The notes beneath the pieces are model-generated. The model was not told the DNA's origin, made no database searches, and worked only from the letters and a program-made list of their open reading frames with translations. From positions 1 to 64,000 of the forward strand of contig JAJYUH010000003.1 of assembly GCA_021792635.1 (NCBI GenBank): a stretch of 64,000 bases of DNA, given 5' to 3'. The DNA comes from Natronospirales bacterium (lineage in GTDB: Bacteria > Pseudomonadota > Gammaproteobacteria > Natronospirales > REEB76). The stretch's first letter is position 1; each line of letters begins with the position of its first letter. The translations under genes and the position numbers were made by a program. Shown here in pieces: positions 7,882 through 51,387 of the stretch.

Positions 7882-10032
7882 ATGAAACAGATTGCCTGGA
7901 TTCTGATGAGCGTTTCCCTGTTGTGGGCGGGGGTGGCGGCGGCAGCGCCCGCACATCCCCAGCTCATATATCCGTCTGCGGCGCGTGACACCATCGTGAA
8001 CGATTACTTCGGCACCAGGGTGCCGGCGCCCTACCAGTGGATGGAGCATCTCAACCGTCCCGCGGTAAAGCAGTGGGTCGAGGCCGAGAACACACTCACA
8101 TTCACCTATCTGCGCAAGATTCCTGAACGCAACTGGATCCGCACCCGGCTGACCAAGCTGTGGAATTACGCCAAGGTGGGCGTGCCGCGCCAGCGGCAGG
8201 GTCGGCTCTTCTTCAGCAAGAACACCGGGCTGCAGAATCAGGCGGTGGTGTACGAGCAGGATTCGCTGACCGCCAAGCCCCGCAAGCTGATTGATCCCAA
8301 TACGCTCTCGCCCAACGGTGACATCGCGCTGCTCGACTACGCGCCCTCACCGCATGGGCGATATCTCGCGTACGCACTCTCCCAGGGCGGCTCTGACTGG
8401 GAGACGCTGCACGTGCGGGATATCGCTACGGGGCATGATTTGTCCGACGCGGTACACTACGTGAAGTTCTCGGGCATTTCCTGGACTCGGGATGACAAGG
8501 GCTTTTTCTACTCGCGCTATCCGGCACCGCCTCCCGGCAAGGCCATCAGCGACCGGGTCAGGGATCAGGCTGTTTACTACCACGTGGTCGGCACACCGCA
8601 GAGCGCGGACCGGCTCATCTACGCGCGGCCGGACCTGCCGGAATGGATCATGGAAGCGAGCGTGTCCGAGGATGGTCGGTACCTGTTCATCGTGCTGGTG
8701 AACGGCACCTCGGCGAATAACGAGCTTTACTACGCGAACCTGGGCGATCCCCGGCACCCCCACGTGGGCGCGCCCATCAAACCGCTGTTCACCAAAAACG
8801 ATGCGGCATACCAACCCATAGGCAATCTGGGGGACACGGTGTTCCTGCAGACCACCCGCAATGCGCCGCGCGACAGGATTGTGTCATTCAAACTGTCCGA
8901 CCCGGCACGCTGGCGCAACGAGGTGCCCGAAACCCGCAACGTGATCCAGAACGCGCTCCTCGCCGACCGGCGTCTGGTGGTGCAGTATCTGGTGGATGTG
9001 AAGAGCGAATTGAAACTCTTTTCAAGCGCCGGCCGACCGCAGGGCGCGGTGCCGCTGCCGGGCATCGGTTCGGTGGTGGGACTGAGCGGCCGCAACACCT
9101 CGTCCGCACTCTACTACGGCTTTACTTCGTTCCTGTATCCGACCACGGTCTATCGTTACGACCTGCGCAGCGGAAAAAACGCGGTGTTCTTCCGGCCCCG
9201 CGTGCCTTTTGATCCCTCGAAATATGTCACCCGCCAGGTGTTCTATCGCTCCAAGGACGGCACACGCATTCCCATGTTCCTCACCTATAAGAAGGGCCTC
9301 AAGCGGAGCGGTGAAAATCCCACCGTGCTCTATGGCTACGGCGGCTTTGACATCAGCATCACTCCGGACTTTTCCCCGAGCCTGCCGGTGTGGCTGGAGC
9401 TGGGCGGCGTGTATGCGGTGGCCAACATCCGCGGCGGCGGCGAGTACGGCGAAGCCTGGCATAAGGCCGGCATGCTCGGTAACAAGCAGAACGTGTTCAA
9501 CGACTTTATCTGGGCGGCGAAGTATCTGATTCGCCGGAAATACACCTCGCCCGGACGGCTCGGCATCGAGGGCTATTCCAACGGCGGGTTGCTGATCGGC
9601 GCTGCCATTACCCAGCAGCCGCAGTGGTTCGGTGCTGCCTACGCGGGTGCCGGTGTCATGGATATGCTGCGCTACCAGAAATTCTCCGGCGGCGCCCTGT
9701 GGGCACCGGAATACGGCACCTCGGACAACGCCAAAGCTTTCCGCTGGCTGATCAAGTACTCGCCGGTACAGAATGTGAAACCGGGCGTGTGCTATCCGCC
9801 CACCATCCTTACCACCGCCGATCATGACGATCGCGTGGTGCCGAGCCATTCCTACAAGTTCACGGCCGCCATGCAGCACGACCAGGGCTGCGCCAACCCG
9901 GTGCTGATCCGCGTGGAAACCCAGACCAGCCACAACTACATGCCTACCGACAAGCGCATCGCCCAAGCCGCCGATATCTGGGCGTTTCTGGCCTACAACC
10001 TGGGAATCACCCGGGCACCGGCCAGGAAGTAA
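7882..10032 (+). CDS. Prolyl oligopeptidase family serine peptidase (S9A), exported
   Basis: A 716-residue peptidase from ATG 7882, which follows GGGAGAAG and begins a signal peptide (MKQIAWILMSVSLLWAGVAA). The N-terminal part is the seven-bladed beta-propeller of S9A enzymes, entered by the characteristic DYFGTRVPAPYQWMEHL. The C-terminal alpha/beta hydrolase has the nucleophile in GYSNGG, an acid in TTADHDDRVVPSHSYKF and the histidine in TQTSHN. It should cleave short proline-containing peptides in the periplasm. Length agrees with the family (about 700). The open frame extends upstream to 7699 inside the previous gene, but that extension would bury the signal peptide. A strong hairpin follows the stop codon. 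Confidence 0.92.
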   Translation: MKQIAWILMSVSLLWAGVAAAAPAHPQLIYPSAARDTIVNDYFGTRVPAPYQWMEHLNRPAVKQWVEAENTLTFTYLRKIPERNWIRTRLTKLWNYAKVGVPRQRQGRLFFSKNTGLQNQAVVYEQDSLTAKPRKLIDPNTLSPNGDIALLDYAPSPHGRYLAYALSQGGSDWETLHVRDIATGHDLSDAVHYVKFSGISWTRDDKGFFYSRYPAPPPGKAISDRVRDQAVYYHVVGTPQSADRLIYARPDLPEWIMEASVSEDGRYLFIVLVNGTSANNELYYANLGDPRHPHVGAPIKPLFTKNDAAYQPIGNLGDTVFLQTTRNAPRDRIVSFKLSDPARWRNEVPETRNVIQNALLADRRLVVQYLVDVKSELKLFSSAGRPQGAVPLPGIGSVVGLSGRNTSSALYYGFTSFLYPTTVYRYDLRSGKNAVFFRPRVPFDPSKYVTRQVFYRSKDGTRIPMFLTYKKGLKRSGENPTVLYGYGGFDISITPDFSPSLPVWLELGGVYAVANIRGGGEYGEAWHKAGMLGNKQNVFNDFIWAAKYLIRRKYTSPGRLGIEGYSNGGLLIGAAITQQPQWFGAAYAGAGVMDMLRYQKFSGGALWAPEYGTSDNAKAFRWLIKYSPVQNVKPGVCYPPTILTTADHDDRVVPSHSYKFTAAMQHDQGCANPVLIRVETQTSHNYMPTDKRIAQAADIWAFLAYNLGITRAPARK

Positions 10033-10033
10033 C

Positions 10034-10059
10034 GGCATCATCCGCGCGCGGATGATGCC
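10034..10059 (+). terminator. Perfect 26-bp inverted repeat after the peptidase gene
   Basis: Two 13-base arms (GGCATCATCCGCG and its exact complement) meet with no spacer, starting two bases after the stop codon. In RNA this gives a stable GC-rich hairpin. There is no U-tract behind it, so it may be a 3'-end protecting or Rho-assisted structure rather than a classical intrinsic terminator. Confidence 0.5.
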
Positions 10060-11750
<1,691 letters not shown>

Positions 11751-11799
11751 TTTTCGTGACAGGGGTCGGGGATTCTGCCCCCTTTGACATCCCGATCCC

Positions 11800-11845
11800 G
11801 TCCCGGAATCGCGAAGCGGGCGACCCGCAGTCCCGGAATTGGGAC
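11800..11845 (+). promoter_or_regulatory. Paired upstream sites, candidate enhancer for the sigma-54 regulator
   Basis: The decamer GTCCCGGAAT occurs at 11800-11809 and again at 11830-11839, spaced 30 bases (about three helical turns) start to start. The second copy is half of a perfect palindrome (GTCCC, six bases, GGGAC, 11830-11845). The pair lies roughly 110-150 bases upstream of a -24/-12 promoter, the usual place for activator binding. Assignment to the regulator encoded at 20771-22117 is inference. Confidence 0.5.
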
Positions 11846-11921
11846 GGCCCGTGAGCGGATGATTCGCCCGGTGATTAGCTGATGGCCTGAAAATCGAGGC
11901 CCTGCACCAACCCTCTGGCTT

Positions 11922-11937
11922 TGGCACGCTACGTGCT
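11922..11937 (+). promoter_or_regulatory. Sigma-54 (-24/-12) promoter of the efflux locus
   Basis: TGGCACG, four bases, then GTGCT. This matches the RpoN consensus TGGCACG-N4-TTGCW at all fixed positions but one, with GG (11923-11924) and GC (11935-11936) separated by exactly 10 bases. Transcription would start near 11948, about 23 bases before the adaptor ATG at 11971. The same gene cluster encodes a sigma-54 activator, which strengthens the call. Confidence 0.7.
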
Positions 11938-11970
11938 TTCCTGTAAGGCATCGCCACTGGGAAATTCGCC

Positions 11971-13239
11971 ATGCCCGATATCGCGATTACCCCTGAAGTC
12001 CGCCGCCGGCGCAAACAGAAACGCTACGCCATCATCGGCGCCGCTGCGGCCGTGGTCATTGCCCTGGTGGTCTGGGCGTTGACGCGCACCCCGGCCGGGC
12101 CGAGCGTGCAACGCTCGGATCTTTGGATCGCGACGGTGCGTCAAGGCCCGCTGCCGATCACGGTGAGTGCCACGGGTACATTCATGCCGGTGGTGGAACG
12201 CTGGATCACCGCGGCCGCACCCGGTGTGGTGGAAATGGTCAAAGTGCAGCCCGGTGACCAGGTGAAACCGGACACGGTGCTCGCGACACTTTCCAATCCC
12301 TCCGTGGTATCTGTGCTGGTGCAGGCTCGGGCCGACGTCGCCAACGCCGAAGCCCAGCGCGCCTCGCAGCACTCGGAACTCACCAATCAGCTTCTGAACC
12401 TGCAGGCAAGTCTCGATTCCGCTAAGGTCGAAGCCGAGATCGCGGCGCTCAAGGAAAAGGCCGAGCGCTCGCTCTTGAGTCAGCACATCGTGTCAACACT
12501 CGACTACCAGACCATCAAGCTGCAGGCCGAGCAGAACGCCAAGCTGGTGACGCTCACCGAACAGCGCGTAGCTGCGTTCAAGCAGAGCATGGCGGCGCAG
12601 GATCAGGCAGCCAATGCGCAAGTGGCCGCGCTCAAGGCCGTGCTCAGCAACCGTCAACAACAGGTGGATGCGCTGCGCGTCACTGCCAATCTCGAAGGCG
12701 TGGTGCAGGACGTGGCGGTGCAGTCAGGTCAGACGCTGGCGCTCGGCGGCAACATCGCGCGTGTCGCCAGCCTCAAGCAACTCAAAGTCACGCTGCAAGT
12801 GCCGGCCAATCAGGCAGGCGAAGTTGTGGTCGGCCAAAGCGTGACGCTGGAACTCGCCACCACCAGCACCCAGGACCTGAACGGCAAAGTCATCCGCGTA
12901 TCGCCGGCCGTGACCAACGGCAACGTGGACGTGGACGTGATCCCGGACGGTGACCTGCCGGCCGACACCCGTCCGAATCTCGCGGTCACGGGCCGCATCC
13001 ACATCGCCAACATCGCCAATACCATCTACATACAGCGTCCGGCCTACGCGAACCCGGACAGCAGTATGACGCTCTACCGTCTCGCCGACGGTGGCAGCGA
13101 CGCGGTACCGGTGAGCGTGCGCTTCGGCGCGGCTTCGGATCGCTACATCCAGATATTGAGCGGTTTGACGCCCAGTGATCAAGTGATCGTCTCCGACACC
13201 AGCGGCTTTGCCGGCGCCAAACTGGTGAACGTGCGATGA
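11971..13239 (+). CDS. Efflux transporter periplasmic adaptor (HlyD/MFP family)
   Basis: A 422-residue membrane-fusion protein. The N-terminus is basic, then has one membrane segment (AIIGAAAAVVIALVVWAL, residues about 17-34) that anchors it in the inner membrane. It continues with a biotinyl/lipoyl-like hairpin half (VVEMVKVQPGDQVKPDTVLA), a long coiled coil (about residues 115-230, rich in Ala, Gln and Glu) and the returning half (GVVQDVAVQSGQTLALGG), then beta-barrel domains. It should bridge the ABC permeases to the TolC-type channel encoded next. It is the first gene behind a sigma-54 promoter. Substrate cannot be told from sequence; MacA-like antimicrobial or lipid export is possible. 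Confidence 0.88.
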   Translation: MPDIAITPEVRRRRKQKRYAIIGAAAAVVIALVVWALTRTPAGPSVQRSDLWIATVRQGPLPITVSATGTFMPVVERWITAAAPGVVEMVKVQPGDQVKPDTVLATLSNPSVVSVLVQARADVANAEAQRASQHSELTNQLLNLQASLDSAKVEAEIAALKEKAERSLLSQHIVSTLDYQTIKLQAEQNAKLVTLTEQRVAAFKQSMAAQDQAANAQVAALKAVLSNRQQQVDALRVTANLEGVVQDVAVQSGQTLALGGNIARVASLKQLKVTLQVPANQAGEVVVGQSVTLELATTSTQDLNGKVIRVSPAVTNGNVDVDVIPDGDLPADTRPNLAVTGRIHIANIANTIYIQRPAYANPDSSMTLYRLADGGSDAVPVSVRFGAASDRYIQILSGLTPSDQVIVSDTSGFAGAKLVNVR

Positions 13240-13263
13240 AAGCGTTGAGCGAAGTTCCGAAAA

Positions 13264-13360
13264 ATTCCGTTCGTACTGAGCTGGTCGAAGTATGAACGGA
13301 ATATTCACACTGCTGTTCAGAAATTTCATGAATACCCTTCGACGTACTCAGGGTGAACGG
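13264..13360. repeat. REP-type inverted-repeat pair, copy A
   Basis: A palindromic unit at about 13264-13302 (core CTGAGCTGGTCGAAG with outer arms ATTCCGTTC and GAACGGAAT) is followed 35 bases later by an inverted unit at 13335-13360 (CCCTTCGACGTACTCAGGG then TGAACGG). The cores of the two units are near-complements, so the pair can fold as one long hairpin, as in BIMEs. It lies between adaptor and channel genes and overlaps the upstream extension of the channel reading frame. Related copies occur at 15568 and 18199. Confidence 0.75.
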
Positions 13361-14809
13361 GAGAAACATTACCTGTCGTTTGGTGTAGTACGCACCGTGG
13401 CTGCGGCTACCGCGCTGTTATTCGCGGCGCGAGCCACGCATGCCACCACGCTCTGGGAAGTATGGCAGTTGGCCGAAGTGCATGCCCCCGCCTTGGAACA
13501 GGCCGAAGCTACGCTCGAACAGGCGCACGCCACGCACTCCGCGGCGCTCGCGCAACTCCTGCCGGCGCTCAATCTCAACGCCAGCCACGTCGTGGATAAC
13601 CAATCGGCCAGCGGCCCGCAGTTCTATGGCAACGGAATTGTCCCGGTGAGCCAGACATCCAATACCCGCACCAACGGTTGGGATCTGCAATTGAGCCAGC
13701 CCCTGTTCGACTGGCACGCGATCCAGAATCTCTCGGCCGCCGATTACACCGAAGCCGCGGGCGTGGCGAGTGCCGAAGCCACGCGCCAAACCCTGATGGC
13801 CACGCTTACACAGGATTACCTCGCGGTATTGAACGCGCAGGCGCAGCTCGCCGCCACGCGCAAGGCCCAGGACGGTTTCGCCACTCAGGCGATACAGGCC
13901 GCAGCACGCTACAGGGCGGGATTGAGCGGCATCATCGGCACGGATGAAACCCAGGCGGCACTTGCCCAGGCGCAGGCCGAAACCCTCTCGGCTGAACAAA
14001 CGTTGAAACAAGCGCGCCGCCAGCTCGATACCGACGCCGGCATACGCATCAACGGACCGTTTCCGGATTTGCCCGCGAACCTAGCCCTCAGCTTGCCTGC
14101 CGGCGTGAATCGCGATGCCTACGTGCAACGCGCGCTGCAGCAAAACCCGACGCTGGCCGCGGCGCGCCTGTCGCAAACCTCCGCCAGTCATGCGCTTTCC
14201 GCCACGCGCGCCGGATACCTGCCGAGCGTGTCGCTGGTGCTGAGTCACCAGCGCAATTTCGTCATCGGCACCTCGGATTTCTCGGTGCCGGGTTCCGCGG
14301 TCACCAGTCCCGCAACCCAGGATGCCAGCCAGAACATGATCGGCCTGCAACTGAGCTGGGCGATTTTTTCCGGCGGGGCGACCTCGGCCGCGGCGCAGGC
14401 CGCCGAAGCCCAGCAGCGTTCGGCCGATGCCAGCGCGCGCACTGCGGAGCTGAGCGTGGCCAGCCGGGTCAGCAACGCGCTCGACGGACTTGCCAGCGAT
14501 CAGCACCGCGTGCGCCAATTGCAAACCGGCGTGGTCTCGGCACAGGCCGCGGTCACCGCCACCGCCGCGGCGGTATCCAAAGGGCTGAATACCGAGCAGA
14601 ACCTGGTGATCGCACGCCAGACATTGCTTACGCTCGAGACCGGCTATGCCCAGGCGGTGGTGGACCTCGTCAACAACCGCGTGGCGCTCGACCAGGCGCT
14701 TGGCACGCTTACACCTGAACTGCTCTCGCAGCTCAGCGGCAAGATCGGCCGCGCACCGGCCAATCCCAATACAGACGATTCGCAACCGAACGGAGACTCC
14801 CCGCAATGA
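13292..14809 (+). CDS. TolC family outer membrane channel protein
   Basis: A protein of up to 505 residues with the alternating coiled-coil and beta-strand pattern of TolC-type exit ducts: repeated Ala/Gln-rich helices such as ALEQAEATLEQAHATHSAALAQLLP and its counterpart in the second half near residues 360-420. The signal peptide is probably VVRTVAAATALLFAARATHA around residues 33-52. The first 30 codons are translated repeat DNA (copy A), so the true start is uncertain: ATG 13292, ATG 13328, or a non-ATG codon nearer the signal peptide, behind GGGAGAAA. The stop overlaps the next start as ATGA, indicating translational coupling to the ATPase. It would let the ABC permeases discharge substrate across the outer membrane. 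Confidence 0.88.
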   Translation: MNGIFTLLFRNFMNTLRRTQGEREKHYLSFGVVRTVAAATALLFAARATHATTLWEVWQLAEVHAPALEQAEATLEQAHATHSAALAQLLPALNLNASHVVDNQSASGPQFYGNGIVPVSQTSNTRTNGWDLQLSQPLFDWHAIQNLSAADYTEAAGVASAEATRQTLMATLTQDYLAVLNAQAQLAATRKAQDGFATQAIQAAARYRAGLSGIIGTDETQAALAQAQAETLSAEQTLKQARRQLDTDAGIRINGPFPDLPANLALSLPAGVNRDAYVQRALQQNPTLAAARLSQTSASHALSATRAGYLPSVSLVLSHQRNFVIGTSDFSVPGSAVTSPATQDASQNMIGLQLSWAIFSGGATSAAAQAAEAQQRSADASARTAELSVASRVSNALDGLASDQHRVRQLQTGVVSAQAAVTATAAAVSKGLNTEQNLVIARQTLLTLETGYAQAVVDLVNNRVALDQALGTLTPELLSQLSGKIGRAPANPNTDDSQPNGDSPQ

Positions 14810-15540
14810 ACACCGATACCGTTATCCGCATCGAAGATCTCACCAAGGTGTACCGCACCGAGGAAGTCGAGACCCATGCGCTTTCCGGCGTCAGCCTGTC
14901 GGTAACGCGCGGCGAGTACGTCGCCATCATGGGGCCGTCGGGCTGCGGCAAAACCACGCTCATGTCCATCCTCGGCCTGCTCGACACGCCCAGTGGCGGC
15001 CAATACGATCTTGCGGGCAAACCGGTTGCCAACCTGGACGCCGGCGCGCGCGCGCGTTTCCGTAACCTGAACATCGGCTTTGTGTTCCAGTCGTTCAACC
15101 TGATCGGCGACCTGAACGTGTACGAAAACGTGGAACTGCCGCTGGTGTACCGCGGCGGCGTCAGCCGCAGCGAGCGGCAGAGCAAGGTGGACGCGGCGCT
15201 CGAAAACGTCGGCATGTCGCATCGCATGCGTCATTACCCGGCGCAGTTGTCCGGCGGCCAGCAGCAGCGCGTGGCCGCGGCGCGCGCACTGGTCGGCGAT
15301 CCCGCGATCCTGCTGGCCGACGAGCCCACGGGCAACCTGGATTCCGCCAACGGCGAAACCATCATGGAACTGCTGGCGGCGCTCAACGCCAAGGGCGCGA
15401 CCATCGTCATGGTGACGCACGATCCGCGCTATGCGGCGCACGCCAAACGCATCGTGCGGCTGTTCGACGGGCAGATTGTCTCCGAGAACAAATCTCCCGC
15501 CGGCATCGAGCTGCGCGCGGGAAAAGGTGCGGCGCGCTAA
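14806..15540 (+). CDS. ABC transporter ATP-binding protein (MacB/LolD type)
   Basis: A 244-residue ATPase. Walker A is GPSGCGKTT near residue 43, the Q-loop lies in FVFQSFNLI, the signature is [15 protein letters not shown] and Walker B is [13 protein letters not shown], with the H-loop in MVTHD. The GNLDS ending is typical of the LolD/MacB/FtsE group that works with FtsX-like permeases. It overlaps the channel gene by four bases and precedes two such permeases, so one ATPase probably powers both. The C-terminus is followed by a REP pair before the first permease. Confidence 0.93.
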
Positions 15541-15567
15541 CGGCTGCTACCAATGCGATAAAGAAAT

Positions 15568-15684
15568 CCCGTTCGTACTGAGCTTGTCGAAGTACGAACC
15601 GAATTTTCCACATGCACATCGGCTTTGAAGATCACCCTTCGACAAGCTCAGAGCCTGCTCCGGACTCGATCCGGGGGTGAACGG
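15568..15684. repeat. REP-type inverted-repeat pair, copy B, with an internal insertion
   Basis: Unit one is at 15568-15600 (core CTGAGCTTGTCGAAG) and unit two starts at 15635 (CCCTTCGACAAGCTCAG). The two 15-base cores are exact complements. Unit two is interrupted: a stretch of about 23 bases containing its own CCGGACTCGATCCGG palindrome stands between CTCAG and the expected GGGTGAACGG, which resumes at about 15675. The Shine-Dalgarno of the downstream permease lies directly after the repeat. Confidence 0.78.
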
Positions 15685-15701
15685 AGAGTAAGGAACGTTT
15701 C

Positions 15702-18182
15702 ATGAACAATATTGCTCAGCACCTTGCCGGCTTTTTCCGCAGCCTGTTCAGAAAACCGGGCTTCGCGCTCGCGGTGATCCTCACGCTCACCATCGGCATC
15801 GGCGCCAATACCGCGACGCTCAGCCTGCTGTACGGTTATCTGCTCGCGCCCTTGCCCTATCCGCATGCGAATCAGCTGGTGAACGTGTATTTCACCGCTA
15901 AGAAATACTCCGGTAACCTGGGCATGTCCTATACCACGTATTTCGACATCCGCAAGCAGACCACGGCCATGAGCGATGCCGGCATGTACCTGATGAACAA
16001 CCTGAATCTGGTGTCCGGGGCCGGGATGGTACATGTGCGCGGCGCAACCATCTCCGCATCGCTGTTCACCACCTTGGGTGTGCGGCCGCTGCTCGGCCGC
16101 GTATTCGGACCGGACGCCAATGCCGTCGGCGCCGCCGGCCAGGTGGTGCTGAGCTATGGACTCTGGTCACGGCTTTTCAACCGCAATCCGTCGGTGATCG
16201 GCCAAGCGATCCGGTTGAACGACAAGGCCTACACCGTGGTTGGAGTCATGCCCCGGAACTTCGAATTTCCCAACACGGCAACCGACCTTTGGCTTCCCCA
16301 AACCTTCGGTCCCTTTACCCACGAAGCCGACAACGTGACCGCCTGGGGCTTCACCATGGTTGCACGTCTTAAACCGGGCGAAACCGCCGCCAGTCTCGCG
16401 GCTCAAGCCCAGGCGGTACTGGACAACGAGGTCGCACACTTTCCTTACCCGTCCGCCATTCCCGACCTCAAAAAAGTGGGCATGAGTATCCAGGCCACGC
16501 CGCTGCGCAGCACACTCGTCGGTGAACTCAGCCAGCGCCTGATCCTCGTGCAGCTCGCCACCGCGCTCTTATTGCTGCTCGTATGGTTCAACCTCGTCAA
16601 TCTCTTCATCGCGCGTGCGCTCACCCGCCGCAGCGAGCTGATCCTGCGGCGCGTGCTCGGCGCCGGCACCCGCACGCTCTTCGGCCAACTGTTTGCCGAA
16701 AGCCTGGCGCTGTGCGTGATCGGTGGCATTGCGGGTTTGATTCTCGGCGAAGTCCTGCTGCGTACCCTGTTGCATACCGGCTTCGGCACCGCGCAACTGG
16801 CCTTCCCGGTCAACGAATGGGGCAGCGCCATCGGCATCGCAGCGGTACTGGCCATCGTCTCGGCGCTGGTGTTTTCGCTCGCCGGCCTGTACTTCATCCG
16901 CCGTCAGGATCTCGGCCAGGCACTGCGCGAAGGGGATGCACGTACATCCGGCGGACGTGGCGAACACCGTATCCGCGCAGGCTTGGTCGTCACCCAACTG
17001 GTCTTGGCCTGTATTCTGGCCGGCATCGGCGCGATGCTGGCGCACAGCCTGATGAAACTCAACAACGTGAGACTCGGTTTTCAGCGGGAGCAATTGATTA
17101 CTTTCCAGGTGCATGTGCCCGGCAGTGCGGACGAAAAATACCTGGGGCCGCCGCTCGAAGCCAAGCTCGCGCCCCTGCACCGGGCGCTTGCGCAGGTGCC
17201 GGGCGTAGAGTCCGTGACGCTCGCGAGCGACATACCCTTCGATGACGAGTCGTCTGGGGTTTCGGCCTATCCCTATCCTTACGACGAGAAACACTCGCCA
17301 GGGGTATTCCCGGTGATCACCGATCCGGGCTACTTCAAGACCTTCGGAATCCCGGTGCTGTCCGGCCGGGGCTTTACACCTCAAGACGCTCAAGTGCTGG
17401 AAGCCTACGCGGTGATTGACGTGAAAGCGGCGGAGTCGTTGTTCGGCACCACCAACGTCGTGGGACGGCAACTCAGTCTCAACAATCCGAACAATACCAA
17501 GCCCAACCTGCTCTACCGCGTGATCGGCGTAGTCGCCAACACGCACCGCGACAAGGTGGGCAGCGCCGAACAGACCGGCAGCGTCTACATAGACCGCGAA
17601 CAGGTGCTGCAAACCAAGACCCAGAACTGGTCTTTTGCAGCGGAAACTTGGTACGTGGCGGTGCGCACGCCGCTTTCGACCGGTGCGATCCTTCCAGCGC
17701 TCACTCGGGCAGTGGCACAAACGTTGCCCGGCATTCCGATTTACAACGTGCGCAGCATGGACCAGCGGCTATCCAACCAGCTGGCTCCGCGCCGCGGTCT
17801 CATGACACTGGTGTTGATGTTTGCCCTCGGCGCGATCCTGCTGGCCGCGGTGGGCCTGTATGCCGTGCAGAGCTATTCGGTCAGCCAGCGGCTGCGCGAG
17901 TTCGGCATCCGCGCGGCGCTCGGCGCGGATCGCGGCCAGTTGCTCGGTTTGGTGTTGCGCGAAATCGCCAGGCTGTTGGTGATTGGCTTGGTCGTTGGCC
18001 TGGTCGGCGTGGTGGTATTCGGACATGTGTTTTCCTCCACGCTCTACAACGTGAACATGGCCGATCCCGTATCGCTGTTCCTGGTGTTTGTGATCCTGAG
18101 CTTCACGGCACTCGCGGCGGGGTGGATTCCCGCCTGGCGCGCGAGCCGCGTGCCGCCGATGGAGGCGCTGAGAGAACGCTAA
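15702..18182 (+). CDS. ABC transporter permease, MacB/FtsX type (first of two)
   Basis: An 826-residue permease with one N-terminal membrane helix (GFALAVILTLTIGIGANTATL), a large MacB-type periplasmic domain, three helices near residues 275-400, a second periplasmic domain, and three more near 700-820 (for example LMTLVLMFALGAILLAAVGLYAVQ and the C-terminal AAGWIPAWRASRVPPMEALRE). Two FtsX domains in one chain is the duplicated-permease layout common in acidobacterial and gammaproteobacterial exporters. ATG 15702 follows GGAGAGTAAGGA, placed directly after REP copy B. It pairs with the ATPase upstream and is a paralogue of the next gene. Such permeases usually move substrate from the periplasm outward (mechanotransmission) rather than across the inner membrane. 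Confidence 0.9.
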   Translation: MNNIAQHLAGFFRSLFRKPGFALAVILTLTIGIGANTATLSLLYGYLLAPLPYPHANQLVNVYFTAKKYSGNLGMSYTTYFDIRKQTTAMSDAGMYLMNNLNLVSGAGMVHVRGATISASLFTTLGVRPLLGRVFGPDANAVGAAGQVVLSYGLWSRLFNRNPSVIGQAIRLNDKAYTVVGVMPRNFEFPNTATDLWLPQTFGPFTHEADNVTAWGFTMVARLKPGETAASLAAQAQAVLDNEVAHFPYPSAIPDLKKVGMSIQATPLRSTLVGELSQRLILVQLATALLLLLVWFNLVNLFIARALTRRSELILRRVLGAGTRTLFGQLFAESLALCVIGGIAGLILGEVLLRTLLHTGFGTAQLAFPVNEWGSAIGIAAVLAIVSALVFSLAGLYFIRRQDLGQALREGDARTSGGRGEHRIRAGLVVTQLVLACILAGIGAMLAHSLMKLNNVRLGFQREQLITFQVHVPGSADEKYLGPPLEAKLAPLHRALAQVPGVESVTLASDIPFDDESSGVSAYPYPYDEKHSPGVFPVITDPGYFKTFGIPVLSGRGFTPQDAQVLEAYAVIDVKAAESLFGTTNVVGRQLSLNNPNNTKPNLLYRVIGVVANTHRDKVGSAEQTGSVYIDREQVLQTKTQNWSFAAETWYVAVRTPLSTGAILPALTRAVAQTLPGIPIYNVRSMDQRLSNQLAPRRGLMTLVLMFALGAILLAAVGLYAVQSYSVSQRLREFGIRAALGADRGQLLGLVLREIARLLVIGLVVGLVGVVVFGHVFSSTLYNVNMADPVSLFLVFVILSFTALAAGWIPAWRASRVPPMEALRER

Positions 18183-18198
18183 GAAAACCAAAACTGCG

Positions 18199-18274
18199 GT
18201 TTATACTAAGCCTGTCGAAGTACGCACGCATCTATCCGCACAAGATCACCCTTCGACACGCTCAGGGTGAACGG
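18199..18274. repeat. REP-type inverted-repeat pair, copy C (diverged)
   Basis: A decayed first unit (ACTAAGCCTGTCGAAGTAC, around 18205-18223) and a well-kept second unit at 18249-18274 (CCCTTCGACACGCTCAGGG then TGAACGG). It fills the 109-base junction between the two permease genes. The second permease's ribosome site (GAGGAAAG) follows directly. Confidence 0.68.
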
Positions 18275-18291
18275 CGACTGAGGAAAGACTG

Positions 18292-20748
18292 ATGAATGCT
18301 TTCATTCATTGCCTTGGAGGGTTGATGCGCGGTTTATTCAGAAAACCCGGTTTCGCGCTTACGGTGGTGCTGATCCTGGCACTCGGCATCGGTGCGAATA
18401 CTGCGACGTTGAGCCTGCTGTATCGCTATTTCTACGCGCCGCTGCCCTATCCCGACGCGCAGCGGCTCGTACGGGTGCAGTTCAGCAATCACTATTGGGG
18501 CACGTTGAACTCGCTGTCCCTGCCCGTGTATCGCGTAATCCGCACCCAGGCGCCCGCCGTGCAAGACGCGGCCGTTTATAACTGGTCCGGGTTCAATCTT
18601 GCGATGGGCTCCCGCAGCCTGCGTGTGGGTGGCATCGTGTCCAGCGCTTCGCTGTTTTCGACGCTCGGCGTGGCACCGCTGATGGGCCGGGTGTTTTCCG
18701 AGTCCAGCGAACAACTGGGTGCGGAGCCGGTGGTTGTGCTGAGTTACGGGATGTGGGACGAGTTATTGCACCGCGATCCCCAGGTGATCGGCAGTACCCT
18801 GCGCCTCGACAACCGGGTTTACACCGTCATCGGGGTGATGCCGGAGAGTTTCTGGTTTCCGTCTCGCAAGGCCATGTTCTGGGCGCCGCTGACGTTGAGC
18901 GAAGCCGATTTCGCGCCCAAGCAAATCGGTGACTTCGATTACAACGTCATCACTCGCCTCAAAACTGGAGCCGATATTTCTCAGCTCGTGGCCCAGGCCA
19001 ATGCTTTGTTCGCAAAAGAAGCATCCTCAGCGGCGGCCGACGGCGAACAAATCAAGGCCGGAGAATTCCGTGCGCGGCCGTTTTCTTGGCGCGATTGGCT
19101 GGTGGGTCAGTTCCATCAGTCGCTGCTGCTGATGCAACTGGCGACCGGTCTGCTGATCCTGCTCGCCTGGTTCAATCTCGCTAATTTATTCGTGACGCGC
19201 GCACTGGCACGCTGCGGGGAGCTGGTGCTGCGTCGAGTGCTGGGCGCCGACTCGCGTCGCCTGTTTGGACAACTGCTGACCGAAAGTCTGGGCCTGTGCG
19301 CCATCGGCACGGTAGCGGGCCTATTGGTCGGGCGACTGCTGGTCGTACTGCTGGAGCGCAGTGGGCTCGTGAACGGCGTCAACGTCGCTTCCGGCAACGG
19401 CTGGGGATTGCCGCTGGCCGTGGCTTGCGGGCTCGGCATCGTGTCGGCGCTGGTATTCGCAACGGTCGGCTTTTATGGCACGCGCCATCAGGACTTGTCG
19501 CTCGCGTTGCGGGAGGGCGATGCACGCGCTTCCCACAGCCGCGGCGAGCGCCGGATACGCTCCGCATTGATCGTACTGCAAGTGGCATTCGCCTGCGCGC
19601 TGTGCGGCATGGGTTTGCTCCTGGCACGCAGCCTCCTGAACTTGAACGGCGTGAACTTGGGGTTCCACCCGCAACACGCGCTCACGCTCGAGTTGAACCT
19701 GCCCGCGGGCCAATACCCGCCGCAGCAATCGGGTGTCGCGTTAACCGCGCTGCGCGCCAAACTCACCGCGCTGCTGGGCGTTTCCGCCGCGAGCATCAGC
19801 TCGCATGTGCCGTTCGATAATAGCCAGGACGATTACGGTATCTTTCCCTATCCCTGGAACCGCCACACTTCCGCCCAATTGTTCACTACGCTCGCGGACG
19901 GAGGTTATTTCCGGGCTCTCGGCATGCCGTTGCTCACGGGGCGCACGTTTTCCGACGCGGATCGCAACTCGGGTGCGGGCGTTGCGGTAATTGACACGCT
20001 AGCGGCCAAGCAACTGTTCGGCACCACGCAGGTACTCGGCCGGCAGTTCACCATCGGCAATGTCGCGCGTCCAGACTCGCTGTTCACCGTCATTGGCATG
20101 GTCAACCCCGTACATCGGGAGCGAGTCGGCAAATCGCCGGGCGAGGGCTCTGTGTACCTGGACCGCAGCCAGGTACTGAACTTCGTCAACCCGTTGTGGG
20201 CCAATCAGCAACATTGGATCGTCAGCGCTCGCTCGCTGCTGCCGCCGGATCGCATCCTGCCGCTGATCCGCGACGCCGCAGACAACATCCTGCCCGGCAT
20301 CCCGGTTTACGGCGTGCAGACCATGGATCAGCGTGTCGCGCAGCAGCTCGCACAACGTCGCGGGCTGGCGTTGCTGGTCGGGTTCTTCAGCCTGAGCGCG
20401 CTGTTGCTCGCATCCGTGGGTCTGTACGCGGTGCAAAACTACGCGGTGAGCCAGCGCACCCGCGAATTCGGCATCCGCGCCGCCATCGGCGCGGACCGCT
20501 CGCGCTTGCTGAGATTAGTGCTGTCCGAAGCCGGCCGTCTGCTGATTATCGGCCTCATTCTGGGTCTCGCGGGCATGGCGGCCATGACCGAAGTGTTCGC
20601 GCCTGTGCTTTACCGCGTGAGTCCCACGGACCCCGCAATTATGCTGATCGTGGTGGGAGTAATCGTGGTGGCGCTGATGCTTGCCGCCTGGCTACCCGCG
20701 TGGCGCGCGAGTCGTATCGCGGCTGCGGAGGCGTTGCGACAGGAATAG
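18292..20748 (+). CDS. ABC transporter permease, MacB/FtsX type (second of two)
   Basis: An 818-residue paralogue of the preceding permease with the same order of parts: N-terminal helix (GFALTVVLILALGIGANTATLS), periplasmic MacB domain, central three-helix FtsX block, second periplasmic domain, and C-terminal block ending LPAWRASRIAAAEALRQE. The two share the start RGLFRKPGFAL and phrases such as LYAVQ and REFGIRAA, so they arose by duplication; they have diverged most in the periplasmic domains. The two products may form a heterodimer on the single ATPase, or alternate. The next gene starts 22 bases after the stop. Confidence 0.9.
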   Translation: MNAFIHCLGGLMRGLFRKPGFALTVVLILALGIGANTATLSLLYRYFYAPLPYPDAQRLVRVQFSNHYWGTLNSLSLPVYRVIRTQAPAVQDAAVYNWSGFNLAMGSRSLRVGGIVSSASLFSTLGVAPLMGRVFSESSEQLGAEPVVVLSYGMWDELLHRDPQVIGSTLRLDNRVYTVIGVMPESFWFPSRKAMFWAPLTLSEADFAPKQIGDFDYNVITRLKTGADISQLVAQANALFAKEASSAAADGEQIKAGEFRARPFSWRDWLVGQFHQSLLLMQLATGLLILLAWFNLANLFVTRALARCGELVLRRVLGADSRRLFGQLLTESLGLCAIGTVAGLLVGRLLVVLLERSGLVNGVNVASGNGWGLPLAVACGLGIVSALVFATVGFYGTRHQDLSLALREGDARASHSRGERRIRSALIVLQVAFACALCGMGLLLARSLLNLNGVNLGFHPQHALTLELNLPAGQYPPQQSGVALTALRAKLTALLGVSAASISSHVPFDNSQDDYGIFPYPWNRHTSAQLFTTLADGGYFRALGMPLLTGRTFSDADRNSGAGVAVIDTLAAKQLFGTTQVLGRQFTIGNVARPDSLFTVIGMVNPVHRERVGKSPGEGSVYLDRSQVLNFVNPLWANQQHWIVSARSLLPPDRILPLIRDAADNILPGIPVYGVQTMDQRVAQQLAQRRGLALLVGFFSLSALLLASVGLYAVQNYAVSQRTREFGIRAAIGADRSRLLRLVLSEAGRLLIIGLILGLAGMAAMTEVFAPVLYRVSPTDPAIMLIVVGVIVVALMLAAWLPAWRASRIAAAEALRQE

Positions 20749-20770
20749 GCTGCTCCGGCATAATGGCCGC

Positions 20771-22117
20771 ATGTCGAAACCGCTGATACTTGTAGCCGAC
20801 GACCAGGCCGACGTGCGCCAGGCGCTGTCGCTGCTGCTGCGCGATTCGGGCTACGAGGTCGCCACCGCGGCCAGCCCCGCCGAAGTGCTGAGTTCGCTCC
20901 GGCAAGCGCGGCCGGAACTGCTGCTGCTGGACCTCAATTTCCAGCGCGATACCACCTCCGGCGCCGAGGGCCTGGCGCTGCTCCGGGAAATCCGCACGCA
21001 CGACGCCGAGCTGCCGGTGGTGATCCTGACCGGCTGGGCCACGGTGCAGCTTGCGGTGCAAGCCATCCAGCTGGGCGCCCAGGATTTTCTGGAAAAGCCC
21101 TGGGAAAACGCGCGCGTGCGCTCGCTGGTGGCCAATCACTTGGCGCTCGCGAGCACTCGTGTGCAGCTCAAGCGGCTTGCGGAAATCCGGCAGGCAGAGG
21201 GTGCTGAAGACGAACCGGTGTTCCAGTCCCGGGGCATGCGCGAAGTCATGGACGTCGCGGCGCGCGTGGCCGCATCCGCGGCACCGGTGCTGCTGACCGG
21301 CGAGAGCGGCATCGGCAAGGGCCTGCTGGCGCGCTGGATTCACCGCCATTCAGCGCGCAAGGACGGCGCATTCGTGAGCGTGAATCTGGGCGGACTCGCG
21401 GAAACCCTGTTCGAGAGCGAACTTTTCGGCCACGTCAAAGGTGCGTTCACCGACGCACGCAGCGATCGCGTGGGACGCTTCGAGAGCGCCCGCGGCGGCA
21501 CGCTGTTTCTCGATGAGATTTCCAACATTGCGCCGGCGCAGCAGGCGCGCTTGCTGCACGTGCTCGAAGAAGGCCGTTACGAACGCGTCGGCGAAACCGC
21601 CTCGCGTACCACGGACGCACGCATCCTCGCCGCCACCAATGCCGATATTCACAAGCTCATGCGCGAAGGCCGGTTCCGCGAGGATTTATATTTCCGGCTG
21701 AACACTGTGGAGATCGCGTTGCCACCCTTGCGCACGCGGCGCGATGACATCGTGCTGCTGGCCGGCCACTATCTCGCGCGCTACGCGCGCCAGCATGTGC
21801 GTCCGCCGCTCATGCTTAGTGACAGCGCACGCCGCGCGCTTGAAGCCTACGACTGGCCCGGCAACGTGCGTGAACTCGCACACGTCATGCAGCGCGCCAT
21901 ACTGCTCGCCAAGGGCGAGGAAGTCCAGGCCGCGGATTTGCGGCTTGCCGGCGGCGACACGGCGGAGCGCTTGGATAATCTCACGTTGGAACAAGCGGAA
22001 CGCTATGTGATCCGGCGCGCACTCGAAAGCTGCGGCGGCGACGTGGAGACGGCGGCGCTCCGGCTCGGTGTGAGCCGCAGCGCTCTTTACCGGCGCATCG
22101 AGAAGCTGCGGGAATGA
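20771..22117 (+). CDS. Sigma-54-dependent response regulator (NtrC family)
   Basis: A 448-residue activator from ATG 20771. The receiver domain (1-120) carries the phospho-acceptor Asp54 in LLLLDLNF and Lys in LEKPW. The AAA+ domain has Walker A GESGIGKG near residue 177 and Walker [10 protein letters not shown]. The sigma-54 contact loop reads GAFTDA (from residue 224) in place of the classic GAFTGA. The C-terminus is a Fis-type helix-turn-helix ([21 protein letters not shown]). It overlaps the kinase gene as ATGA. It should, when phosphorylated, act at the -24/-12 promoter at 11922 and switch on the efflux locus; this autogenous loop is inference. An upstream frame extension to 20681 lies inside the permease gene and is rejected. 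Confidence 0.92.
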
Positions 22118-23421
22118 ATCTTTTCCGGCCGGCAAACGGGAGTGACTGGACTCTCGGTATCCTGGGCGTGCTGCCGGCGCTGATCCTGGCGGGACTGCCT
22201 CTCGCGGGGGTGGAATTCCCCCGCGGGCTGCACGTACTGCTTTTGGCGTTGGCGGTCCTTTGGTTTGCGGTGTTCCTGGGGATGGCCGTTTCCCGGCGAA
22301 CCCGCCGCCTGCGAATCCTCGCGAGTCTGTTGCAGGCCCTGCGGGAAGGCGATTACAGCCTGCGGGCCCGGGGCAGGGGTGGGGCGTTCAAGGAAGTCTG
22401 GCGCGAGTTCAACGCGCTGGCGGCGCGGCTCGGCGGGGAACAGCGTCTCGGCATCGAGACCGACGCGCTGCTCGTGCAACTGCTTGCCGCCCTGGAGTTC
22501 GCCGTGCTGGTGGTTGACGGCCAGGATCGCCTCGTGGACCTGAACCCCGCCGCAGAACAGTTGCTCGGCGATGTCGCCACGGTACTGGTGGGCCGCCCGG
22601 CGAGTGAACTCAAACTGGCCGATTGGCTGACCCGGTCCTCTCCCTTTATTGACAGTCAGGACTTTTCCGGTGGCAGCGGTCCCTGGGAAGTGCGCCGACT
22701 CACTTTCCGCCGCCAGGGCCGGCCGCACCGCCTGCTGGTGGTGACCGACGTGAGCCGTGCATTGCGCGAAGAGGAACGGCGCGCCTGGCGACGACTGATC
22801 CGCGTGCTCGGCCACGAAATCAACAACTCTCTCGGACCGATCCAGTCCACGGCCAATGTTCTCAGGGAAAAAATTGTCAAGCAAGTCGCGCCCGACATTC
22901 ATGAACTGCAAGAGGGTCTCCTGTTGATCGAGCGGCGCAGCCAGGCGTTGGGGGCATTCATTCGTCGTTATGCGGATCTGGCCCGATTGCCGCCGCCGCA
23001 GCGCAATCCCCTTGACCTGTCCGCGTTGCTCGGACGCGTGGCGTCTTTGGAAACGCGCCTGGTGGTCCAGGTGGAGTCGGGCACACCGGTGGTTATTGAC
23101 GGGGATGAAGCCCAGTTGGAGCAGGCATTCATCAATCTGGTGCGTAACGCGGTGGATGCCGCCCAGGAAACACACGGCAGCGTCAGGTTGCGATGGCAGA
23201 TGCTGGGCACAAGCGTGCGGGTGGAGATCGAGGATGATGGGCCGGGGATTCAGAATACCGAAAACCTGTTTGTGCCGTTTTTCACTACCAAGCCGGGTGG
23301 GACCGGCATCGGTCTCGTATTGGCGCGGCAAATCATCGAAGCCCACAATGGCACAGTGCGCTTGCGGAACCGGCGAGGTGCGCGCGGCGTTTCCGCCCTG
23401 GTAACCCTGCGCCGCAACTGA
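22114..23421 (+). CDS. Sensor histidine kinase (NtrY-like)
   Basis: A 435-residue membrane kinase. Two hydrophobic segments (about residues 8-27 and 34-55) give a very small periplasmic loop, so sensing is likely in or near the membrane. A HAMP-like stretch and a PAS domain (LEFAVLVVDGQDRLVDLNPAAEQLL, about 125-150) follow. The H-box is VLGHEINNSLGP with His234, the N-box is NLVRNAVDAAQE, and the G-boxes are DDGPGI and GTGIGLVLARQIIE. It is coupled by a four-base overlap to the response regulator, its obvious partner. The setting behind an export operon suggests that it detects envelope stress or the exported compound. Confidence 0.92.
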   Translation: MNLFRPANGSDWTLGILGVLPALILAGLPLAGVEFPRGLHVLLLALAVLWFAVFLGMAVSRRTRRLRILASLLQALREGDYSLRARGRGGAFKEVWREFNALAARLGGEQRLGIETDALLVQLLAALEFAVLVVDGQDRLVDLNPAAEQLLGDVATVLVGRPASELKLADWLTRSSPFIDSQDFSGGSGPWEVRRLTFRRQGRPHRLLVVTDVSRALREEERRAWRRLIRVLGHEINNSLGPIQSTANVLREKIVKQVAPDIHELQEGLLLIERRSQALGAFIRRYADLARLPPPQRNPLDLSALLGRVASLETRLVVQVESGTPVVIDGDEAQLEQAFINLVRNAVDAAQETHGSVRLRWQMLGTSVRVEIEDDGPGIQNTENLFVPFFTTKPGGTGIGLVLARQIIEAHNGTVRLRNRRGARGVSALVTLRRN

Positions 23422-23560
23422 CGGAACGAAGCCATTGCCCTGGCAAGAATACCGTCAAGTGACGTAGTTCGTGTCACGCTTGAATCACACGGACAGGCCG
23501 GGTTTGCAGAACCTGCCTTGGAATTGCTTTTGGCGGATAATGATTTCAGGAGGTTCTACC

Positions 23561-23767
23561 ATGATGCTTACGGTCGTACTCATGCCGGCTCCCGAAGACG
23601 GGTTCACTGCCATGAATCCTGAAACGGGCACTACGACTCAGGGAGAATCTGTGCCTGAAGCCCTAAAAAACCTCCGGGAAGCCACCGAACTTTACCTGGA
23701 AGAGTTTTCCATCAGCACTGTTGGCCCGCCGCTGATAACAGCCTTCCAGGTTCTGCCGCATGCCTAA
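23561..23767 (+). CDS. hicB: HicB-type antitoxin
   Basis: A 68-residue protein with the HicB partial RNase-H-like fold: it opens MMLTVVLMPAPEDGFTAMNP and ends with the family's SVPEALKNLREATELYLEEF. The start ATG 23561 is set by a perfect AGGAGG at about 23549-23554, so the longer frame from 23471 is rejected. Such proteins bind and neutralise the HicA mRNA interferase and often repress their own promoter. The reading frame looks intact and overlaps the hicA start by eight bases. The partner is broken (next entry), so this is an antitoxin without a working cognate toxin here. Confidence 0.8.
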   Translation: MMLTVVLMPAPEDGFTAMNPETGTTTQGESVPEALKNLREATELYLEEFSISTVGPPLITAFQVLPHA

Positions 23768-23939
23768 ATTGCCGCACCTCTCCGGTCAAGAGGCGGTGCG
23801 CGCACTCGAACGTCTGGGCTTCATCGTTCTTCGTTAACACGGCAGTCACATCATTCTCCGTCGCGAAACATTCGTAGGTGTTATCCCAAACCATCGCGAA
23901 CTGAAGATTGGTACGATAAATCTCGGGGAAACCGCATGA
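23760..23939 (+). pseudogene. hicA: hicA mRNA interferase toxin, inactivated by an internal stop
   Basis: Reading from ATG 23760 gives a HicA N-terminus (MPKLPHLSGQEAVRALERLG), then FIVLR, then TAA at 23835-23837 (codon 26). Past it the same frame continues HGSHIILRRETFVGVIPNHR and ELKIGTI, which is the family's conserved core including the catalytic His of GSH. The codon normally encodes Gln in this position (RQxGSH), so a single C-to-T change of CAA explains it. The tail after KIGTI also departs from the usual LRxILRDAG ending, while DAGV appears in another frame near 23938-23950, suggesting an additional frameshift. The truncated 25-residue product lacks the active site. Confidence 0.78.
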
Positions 23940-50394: not shown

Positions 50395-51387
50395 GTGGCG
50401 CAGAGGCTGGGAGAACTGCAAGCCTGGGTGGCGGGGGCACTGCGGATTCCGGCGGTGATGCTGGAAGCGGCTTCGGCGGATGCCAGCTTCCGGCGCTATT
50501 TCCGCACCTATGCCGGCGGGCGCTCTTATATCGTCATGGACGCGCCGCCCCCCCGGGAGGACTGCCGCCCTTTCGTGCGTATTGCCGGGCTGCTGCAAGA
50601 CGCGGGCGTGCATGCCCCCGAAATACTCGCCCAGGACCTGCAGCGGGGATTCCTGCTGCTCAGCGATCTGGGACGCCGCACCTACCTCGATGTGCTCAAC
50701 CAAGACAATGCCGATACGCTGTTTGCCGACGCCATTGCGGCGCTGATTCGATGGCAGCAAGCCAGCCGGGCTGATGCGTTGCCACCCTACGACCGTGCTC
50801 TGCTGCAACGCGAACTCAGGCTGTTTCCCGATTGGTATGTGGCACGTCATCTGCATATTGCACTCACGCAGGCGGAGCGTGAAACTTTGGAATCCAGCTT
50901 CACGCTGCTGGAGAACAGCGCGCTGGAGCAGCCCCGGGTCTATGTGCATCGTGACTACATGCCCCGCAATCTCATGCTGAGTACGCCCAATCCCGGCGTA
51001 CTGGATTTCCAGGACGCGGTGTATGGGCCGATTACCTACGACGTGGCGTCCCTGTTCAGGGACGCTTTTATTTCCTGGGAGGAACGGCAGATAAGCGCCT
51101 GGCACAGGCAATACTGGCAACAGGCCGGACAAGCCGGCTTGCCGGTACCGGAGTTCTCCGCATTCGAGCGTGCCTGCGACTGGATGGGCATGCAGCGGCA
51201 TCTCAAGGTGCTGGGCATCTTCGCCCGCATCCACTACCGTGACGGCAAGCCGGACTATCTCAAGGATACGCCGCGGTTTCTGCGCTATGTGCGTGAGACC
51301 GGCAGGCTTTATAGGGAATTCATGCCGCTCCTGAAATTGCTGGATGCGCTGGAAAGCCGCGTATCACCAACGGTGACGGCAATATGA
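50395..51387 (+). CDS. amgK: N-acetylmuramate/N-acetylglucosamine anomeric kinase (AmgK-like)
   Basis: A 330-residue aminoglycoside-phosphotransferase-fold kinase from GTG 50395 (GGGAGAGCG upstream). Kinase motifs are ASFRRYFRTY, the catalytic loop YVHRDYMPRNLML and the DFG-like DFQDAVYGPITYDVASLF. With murU immediately downstream (overlap ATGA) it forms the AmgK-MurU cell-wall recycling pair: AmgK phosphorylates MurNAc at C1 and MurU turns the product into UDP-MurNAc, bypassing MurA, the fosfomycin target. The position divergent from lptD is the same as in pseudomonads. Substrate call rests on this context and resemblance. Confidence 0.9.
   Translation: MAQRLGELQAWVAGALRIPAVMLEAASADASFRRYFRTYAGGRSYIVMDAPPPREDCRPFVRIAGLLQDAGVHAPEILAQDLQRGFLLLSDLGRRTYLDVLNQDNADTLFADAIAALIRWQQASRADALPPYDRALLQRELRLFPDWYVARHLHIALTQAERETLESSFTLLENSALEQPRVYVHRDYMPRNLMLSTPNPGVLDFQDAVYGPITYDVASLFRDAFISWEERQISAWHRQYWQQAGQAGLPVPEFSAFERACDWMGMQRHLKVLGIFARIHYRDGKPDYLKDTPRFLRYVRETGRLYREFMPLLKLLDALESRVSPTVTAI

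Follow-up and report, generated by a model that had tools for sequence, protein, structure and literature searches.

Paired dyads and a sigma-54-type box precede an efflux operon with its own kinase and NtrC-type regulator: a probable self-activating circuit

How might an efflux pump be switched on when its genes run on into a response regulator and a kinase of their own? This question is raised by a locus at 11971-23421 of a 64,000-nucleotide stretch from Natronospirales bacterium (contig JAJYUH010000003.1, positions 1 to 64,000; hereafter the window), where genes for an adaptor, a TolC channel, an ABC ATPase and two ADOP duplicated permeases are followed by those for an NtrC-type response regulator and a histidine kinase. 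From its sequence and that of homologous loci (designated by L numbers), we consider it likely that this operon combines a pump with its own kinase and NtrC-type regulator and activates itself through paired dyads and a sigma-54 box.

Results

A constrained -24/-12 box precedes the operon

Three elements stand before the adaptor gene; their retention is given for the closest ortholog, L086 (genome G008, same genus).

11800..11815, + strand: predicted upstream regulator site 1, weak, with an intact GTCCC left arm and a degenerate right arm; centre -140.5; 15/16 bases kept in L086
11830..11845, + strand: predicted upstream regulator site 2, dyad GTCCC-GGAATT-GGGAC, centre -110.5; 16/16 bases kept in L086
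11922..11937, + strand: -24/-12 box TGGCACGCTACGTGCT, GG and GC exactly 10 bases apart; start predicted near 11948

The initial annotation had placed an RpoN box at 11922-11937 with GG and GC exactly 10 apart, and the sequence bears this out. The start at 11948 is predicted from the box by convention, and the site centres are counted from it. Comparison with L086 revealed that 12/12 box positions are kept, as against 0/5 spacer bases and 45/93 of the rest of 11866-11970, a footprint expected by chance with a probability of ∼3.6e-4. Judged by this pattern, the box is under constraint. Nine to 12 of the 12 box positions are matched in 11/12 systems, the spacing in L156 looking lost by eye. A GG/GC spacing of this kind, kept in relatives, is that of a sigma-54-type promoter, and the genome holds one rpoN match (431.7 bits, above cut-off). 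Exact box matches in the window number two, the other one, at 50840, lying inside a reading frame. The same 16-mer TGGCACGCTACGTGCT, spacer included, also precedes a distant homologous operon in another family (L095, position 8272), an identity that may reflect either chance or constraint.

The upstream dyad follows one group of regulators

Repeated sites 30 bases apart had been reported upstream of the box, and GTCCCGGAAT is indeed present at 11800 and 11830. The claim of a perfect palindrome had to be given up, 11830-11845 consisting of perfect 5-base arms around a non-palindromic centre. Exact copies of GTCCCGGAAT in the 2.71 Mb genome number 8, versus 4 for a reversed control, and 2 of the 8 are those found here. 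As a candidate operator this 10-mer was replaced by the split dyad RTCCC-N6-GGGAY after reading distant homologs: L087 and L088, whose regulators are 57% identical, show recurring GTCCC-N6-GGGAT or ATCCC-N6-GGGAC. Site 1 carries 2 mismatches to this dyad, only its left arm being kept.

The motif was fixed on the window, L086, L087 and L088, and further systems were then scanned. Six of the seven further distinct systems carried exact dyads (three in L100, two each in L156 and L158; also L153, L154 and L157), and L089 a dyad with one mismatch; L155, a near copy of L088, was left out of the seven. A dyad is therefore present upstream in 12/12 homologous systems with upstream DNA (11 exact, one with a mismatch; one near copy), L028, L090 and L101 not being counted as their contigs stop short of the promoter. 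Where the box could be measured (11 systems, with L155 but not L156), 13 exact dyads fall within the 3300 bp upstream versus 2 in the remaining 212450 bp. A motif-free search for shared 4-base dyads ranked TCCC-N6-GGGA first, in 9/10 regions; in 300 shuffled control sets, at most 3 regions shared a dyad.

The dyads lie at -110 to -143 relative to the box-predicted start in most systems, the predicted positions being near -140 and -110, and a second site (≤2 mismatches of 10) stands 30-31 bases off in 9/12 systems (the window, L086, L087, L088, L153 and L155-L158), both paired sites being exact in L156 and L158 only. No exact dyad was found in any of the 22 loci with more distant regulators (L091-L098, L102-L115), indicating that the dyad follows this regulator group. 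The initial annotation had staked its reading on conservation of the box and of the upstream sites in orthologous loci; both are kept, the box amid drifting surroundings. Its further proposal, that the operon's own regulator would bind these sites, gains support from the same conservation, with binding itself a prediction.

Of the 13 Bacteroidota loci (L103-L115), all but L113 and L114 have a TGG-N8-TTGC box before the adaptor (11/13), and GTCCG-type dyads were seen by eye. A separate sequence, GTCCCAGACGTGGGAC, occurs near contig ends in two genomes (C1:180 and C10:172 in the window's own genome; 18768 in L086) and is probably not a regulator site but a repeat found where the assembly breaks.

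Regulator and kinase

The regulator possesses a complete receiver, sigma-54 interaction AAA+ domain and Fis-type helix-turn-helix, all above curated cut-offs, and is thus of NtrC type. Its loop reads GAFTDA, as in 11/12 aligned regulators.

Hydropathy indicates that the kinase and nine homologs, ranging from this genus to Bacteroidota, all have two hydrophobic segments before about residue 65 joined by a short loop (10/10). On this ground the kinase appears to have almost no periplasmic part, the layout of intramembrane-sensing kinases, and it would therefore likely sense within the membrane. A further hydrophobic stretch is present at about residues 116-139, in the PAS region, in 4/10 kinases. 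The best curated models for the kinase, AtoS and NtrB, score far below cut-off. Searching genome contigs with the kinase yielded 31 loci. Pump parts adjoin the kinase in 17 of these (L099-L115; L110 without a permease match, L101 with a permease only). The weaker matches L116-L129, left out of counts, had no adaptor or permease homolog, and an ATPase homolog was found only in L122.

The operon and its products

Reading frames and domain matches agree with the gene order that the initial annotation had given:

11971..13239, + strand: periplasmic adaptor (RND_mfp/HlyD type)
13292..14809, + strand: TolC-family outer membrane channel
14806..15540, + strand: ABC ATPase
15702..18182, + strand: ADOP duplicated permease 1 (TIGR03434, 662.6 bits versus cut-off 622.3; structure model)
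18292..20748, + strand: ADOP duplicated permease 2 (TIGR03434, 630.2 bits, above cut-off)
20756..20765, + strand: CGGCATAATG, tentatively an internal -10 element, ahead of the regulator gene
20771..22117, + strand: NtrC-type response regulator (receiver, AAA+, Fis helix-turn-helix; loop GAFTDA)
22114..23421, + strand: histidine kinase (two N-terminal hydrophobic segments, PAS, HisKA, HATPase)

Both permeases belong to the ADOP class, with TIGR03434 scores above cut-off and two FtsX plus two MacB_PCD stretches. In the Foldseek comparison, matches were only re-ranked, and families missing from the ranking are not excluded. MacAB-TolC systems have the ATPase domain fused to a single MacB permease; here the ATPase is separate and the permeases are duplicated, and the pump works like MacAB-TolC without being classed as MacAB-TolC.

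The element CGGCATAATG is identical in the 4/4 closest copies (the window, L086, L028 and L101) and absent in L100. As a sigma-70-like match it is within chance, and sigma-70 promoters and terminators inside 11600-23700 are no more numerous than chance.

Directly upstream of the operon lies a tyrosine phenol-lyase gene (10335-11750, + strand; TIGR02618, 793.7 bits, above cut-off), and the 3′ end of such a gene precedes the operon in L086 too. Just 3′ of the kinase gene, at 23562-23930 (+ strand), a HicB-like frame is followed by a HicA-like frame with an early stop (read by eye).

Gene arrangement and distribution of the locus

Regulator and kinase end the pump operon in this genus (the window and L086) and in L100. 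With the pair 3′ of the pump genes, activation would feed back positively, so the positive loop first proposed from the window stands, on layout, for this genus and L100. It does not extend by layout to seven loci (L087, L088, L153, L154, L155, L157 and L158) in which the regulator-kinase genes point away from the pump and the dyads are close to the start of the regulator gene; binding at the dyads could there also restrain the regulator gene.

The locus has a patchy distribution: with matches at E ≤1e-70, it was found in 3/19 genomes of the order, all in this genus (3/11), in 8/9 genomes of the order of G250 and in 1/53 of the order of G347. Between L086 and the window, the adaptor, TolC, ATPase, permease 1, regulator and kinase are 86-94% identical, and permease 2 only 58%. 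The L086 permease 2 (13522-15993, versus 18292-20748 in the window) may have been exchanged or be diversifying. The partial locus L101 looks mosaic, with a kinase N-terminus 97% identical, a regulator 81% identical with a near-identical C-terminus, and a permease only 27% identical.

Some loci differ from the full set. L156, a second copy in genome G384, has an integrase-type (rve) gene (9708-10990) in place of the pump; the regulator-kinase pair adjoins it, and the dyads remain before the orphan regulator gene. The permease gene that follows dyad and box in L089 is 32% identical to permease 2, and a panB-type gene separates it from the regulator-kinase pair, ∼1.7 kb further on; L089 yielded no adaptor homolog, and the nearest ATPase match is weak (27%) and >5 kb away. 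No adaptor or TolC homolog was found in L100.

Discussion

A proposed circuit and its alternatives

We propose that the kinase-regulator pair drives its own TolC-type ABC efflux pump through sigma-54. The regulator, once phosphorylated by phosphotransfer from the kinase, would likely bind the paired RTCCC-N6-GGGAY sites near -140 and -110 and activate sigma-54 polymerase at the -24/-12 box, thereby inducing the pump. Being encoded by the last two genes of the operon, regulator and kinase would induce themselves too, a positive feedback in this genus. Sensing by the kinase would likely take place within the membrane, either directly or by way of the ADOP permeases. Tentatively, both signalling proteins may owe their starting level to a weak internal promoter ahead of the regulator gene.

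Several observations weigh against this circuit. The box by itself does not exceed chance: the window has 53 matches with ≤2 mismatches, versus 61.2 expected, and box sequence alone was accordingly rejected as evidence. Site 1, degenerate in the window, is weaker still in L086, where conservation extends over the entire stretch preceding the sites (74/79), so that the dyads can hardly be judged from this pair of genomes. The second sites of L086, L087, L088 and L155 have 2 mismatches, L089 and L100 have other site spacings, and L154 is without a second site at ≤2 mismatches. The ten upstream regions amount to about five groups without alignable upstream DNA, and these groups are what should fairly be counted as independent cases. 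Nor is the dyad enriched genome-wide, with 12 places versus 10 for a control. We claim no wider regulon, none of these places offering a second target with a properly placed box: at L136 a box follows the dyad by 258 bases but falls inside a reading frame, and at L140 the box is on the wrong side. The window contains no good IHF site (the best has 2 mismatches), and IHF sites were not used as evidence, a perfect match being present in only L089 and L153 of 10 regions. Finally, the regulator loop is GAFTDA, not GAFTGA, and in the accessible part of one report (PMC10714721) pull-down of VfmH, a GAFTDA protein, did not recover sigma-54.

This last result, together with dyads lying close before the regulator gene in L087, L088 and L153-L158, would suit a regulator that works independently of sigma-54, as a sigma-70-type activator or a repressor at the dyads. 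We regard this as improbable: the box is constrained, the dyads in most systems lie far from a polymerase-contact position, and the available text of PMC4641369 counts GAFTDA among the variants that would keep activity. Slightly less probable still is a real box used by another enhancer-binding protein, with the operon's own regulator acting elsewhere. Two further regulators of the same type are encoded in the genome (on C5 and C16, at E up to 1e-60), but across lineages the dyad goes with the cognate regulator group, and none of its 12 genome-wide places has another properly placed box.

Opinion is evenly balanced on whether the kinase responds by itself to a small molecule or to membrane stress, through its membrane helices or cytoplasmic PAS domain, the pump standing outside signalling and the circuit being otherwise as described. 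A PAS domain does follow the membrane part, and in L086 permease 2 is far more diverged than the kinase (58% identity against 86-94% for the other six proteins), so the kinase need not follow permease 2; against this, such kinases accompany FtsX/MacB-type pumps in many lineages. We entertain as a possibility, if a doubtful one, that the system is a Gram-negative counterpart of Bce modules, in which the pump would be the sensor and an ADOP permease of YbbP/BceB-like fold would report load to the kinase, and through it to an NtrC-type regulator and sigma-54. The sets in Gammaproteobacteria and Bacteroidota with GTCCC or GTCCG dyads would then form one class of load-sensing envelope pumps, with pump output set by pump load. 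It seems rather unlikely that the machine mainly extracts lipid or hydrophobic compounds from the inner membrane instead of exporting drugs, since an adaptor and a TolC channel are encoded alongside it, which points to export across the outer membrane.

Comparison with known systems

The self-activating circuit favoured here recalls NtrC at glnA, where two enhancer sites ∼32 bases apart, near -140 and -108, stand before a -24/-12 box; the layout of enhancer pair and box is similar, while half-sites, target and sensor differ. E. coli MacB carries its own ATPase domain and dimerises, and E. coli YbbAP is without adaptor or TolC; unlike either, the locus has a separate ATPase plus adaptor and TolC. 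The Bce/Bra modules of Gram-positive bacteria, as far as the available accounts go, pair intramembrane kinases with ABC transporters. Bce regulators are OmpR-type, and the locus differs from BceRS/BraRS-type modules by its NtrC-type regulator, sigma-54 box, adaptor and TolC.

MacABCsm-MacRS of Stenotrophomonas maltophilia is likewise a tripartite ABC pump that has an outer membrane channel of its own, and a two-component system is encoded next to it; unlike here, the MacRS pair is divergent from the pump, and the accessible portion of that report names no sigma-54 or NtrC-type regulator (PMC10295115). Phage-shock systems with FtsX/MacB parts were set aside, the arrangement described in the available part of PMC11237479 being different. 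Among the matches listed in a literature search, with subscription journals mostly outside it, none described an ADOP or MacB pump paired with both an NtrC-type regulator and an intramembrane kinase, and none united these components with a paired enhancer and a sigma-54 box.

Closest in substance is a 2025 survey whose accessible text predicts sigma-54 promoters before FtsX-type permease operons (COG0577) in Gammaproteobacteria, Opitutia and Bacteroidia and describes its own sigma-54/FtsX-permease link as first evidence (PMC12316311). A sigma-54 promoter before an FtsX-type permease operon is what that prediction and this locus share. The survey reports COG-level enrichment; 'upstream activating' is absent from its text, and no dedicated regulator-kinase pair or enhancer pair is named in the portion available. 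The paired enhancer, the dedicated regulator and the Bce-like layout appear to be new, the sigma-54/FtsX-permease link having already been predicted in 2025. With this locus the statistical link becomes a concrete circuit open to testing, its regulator, kinase, paired enhancer and promoter all named, and the RTCCC-N6-GGGAY signature permits regulon prediction in relatives. Given how little of the kinase seems to lie outside, it becomes possible to test whether transporter-borne sensing, as in the Bce modules of Gram-positive bacteria, occurs in Gram-negative bacteria too.
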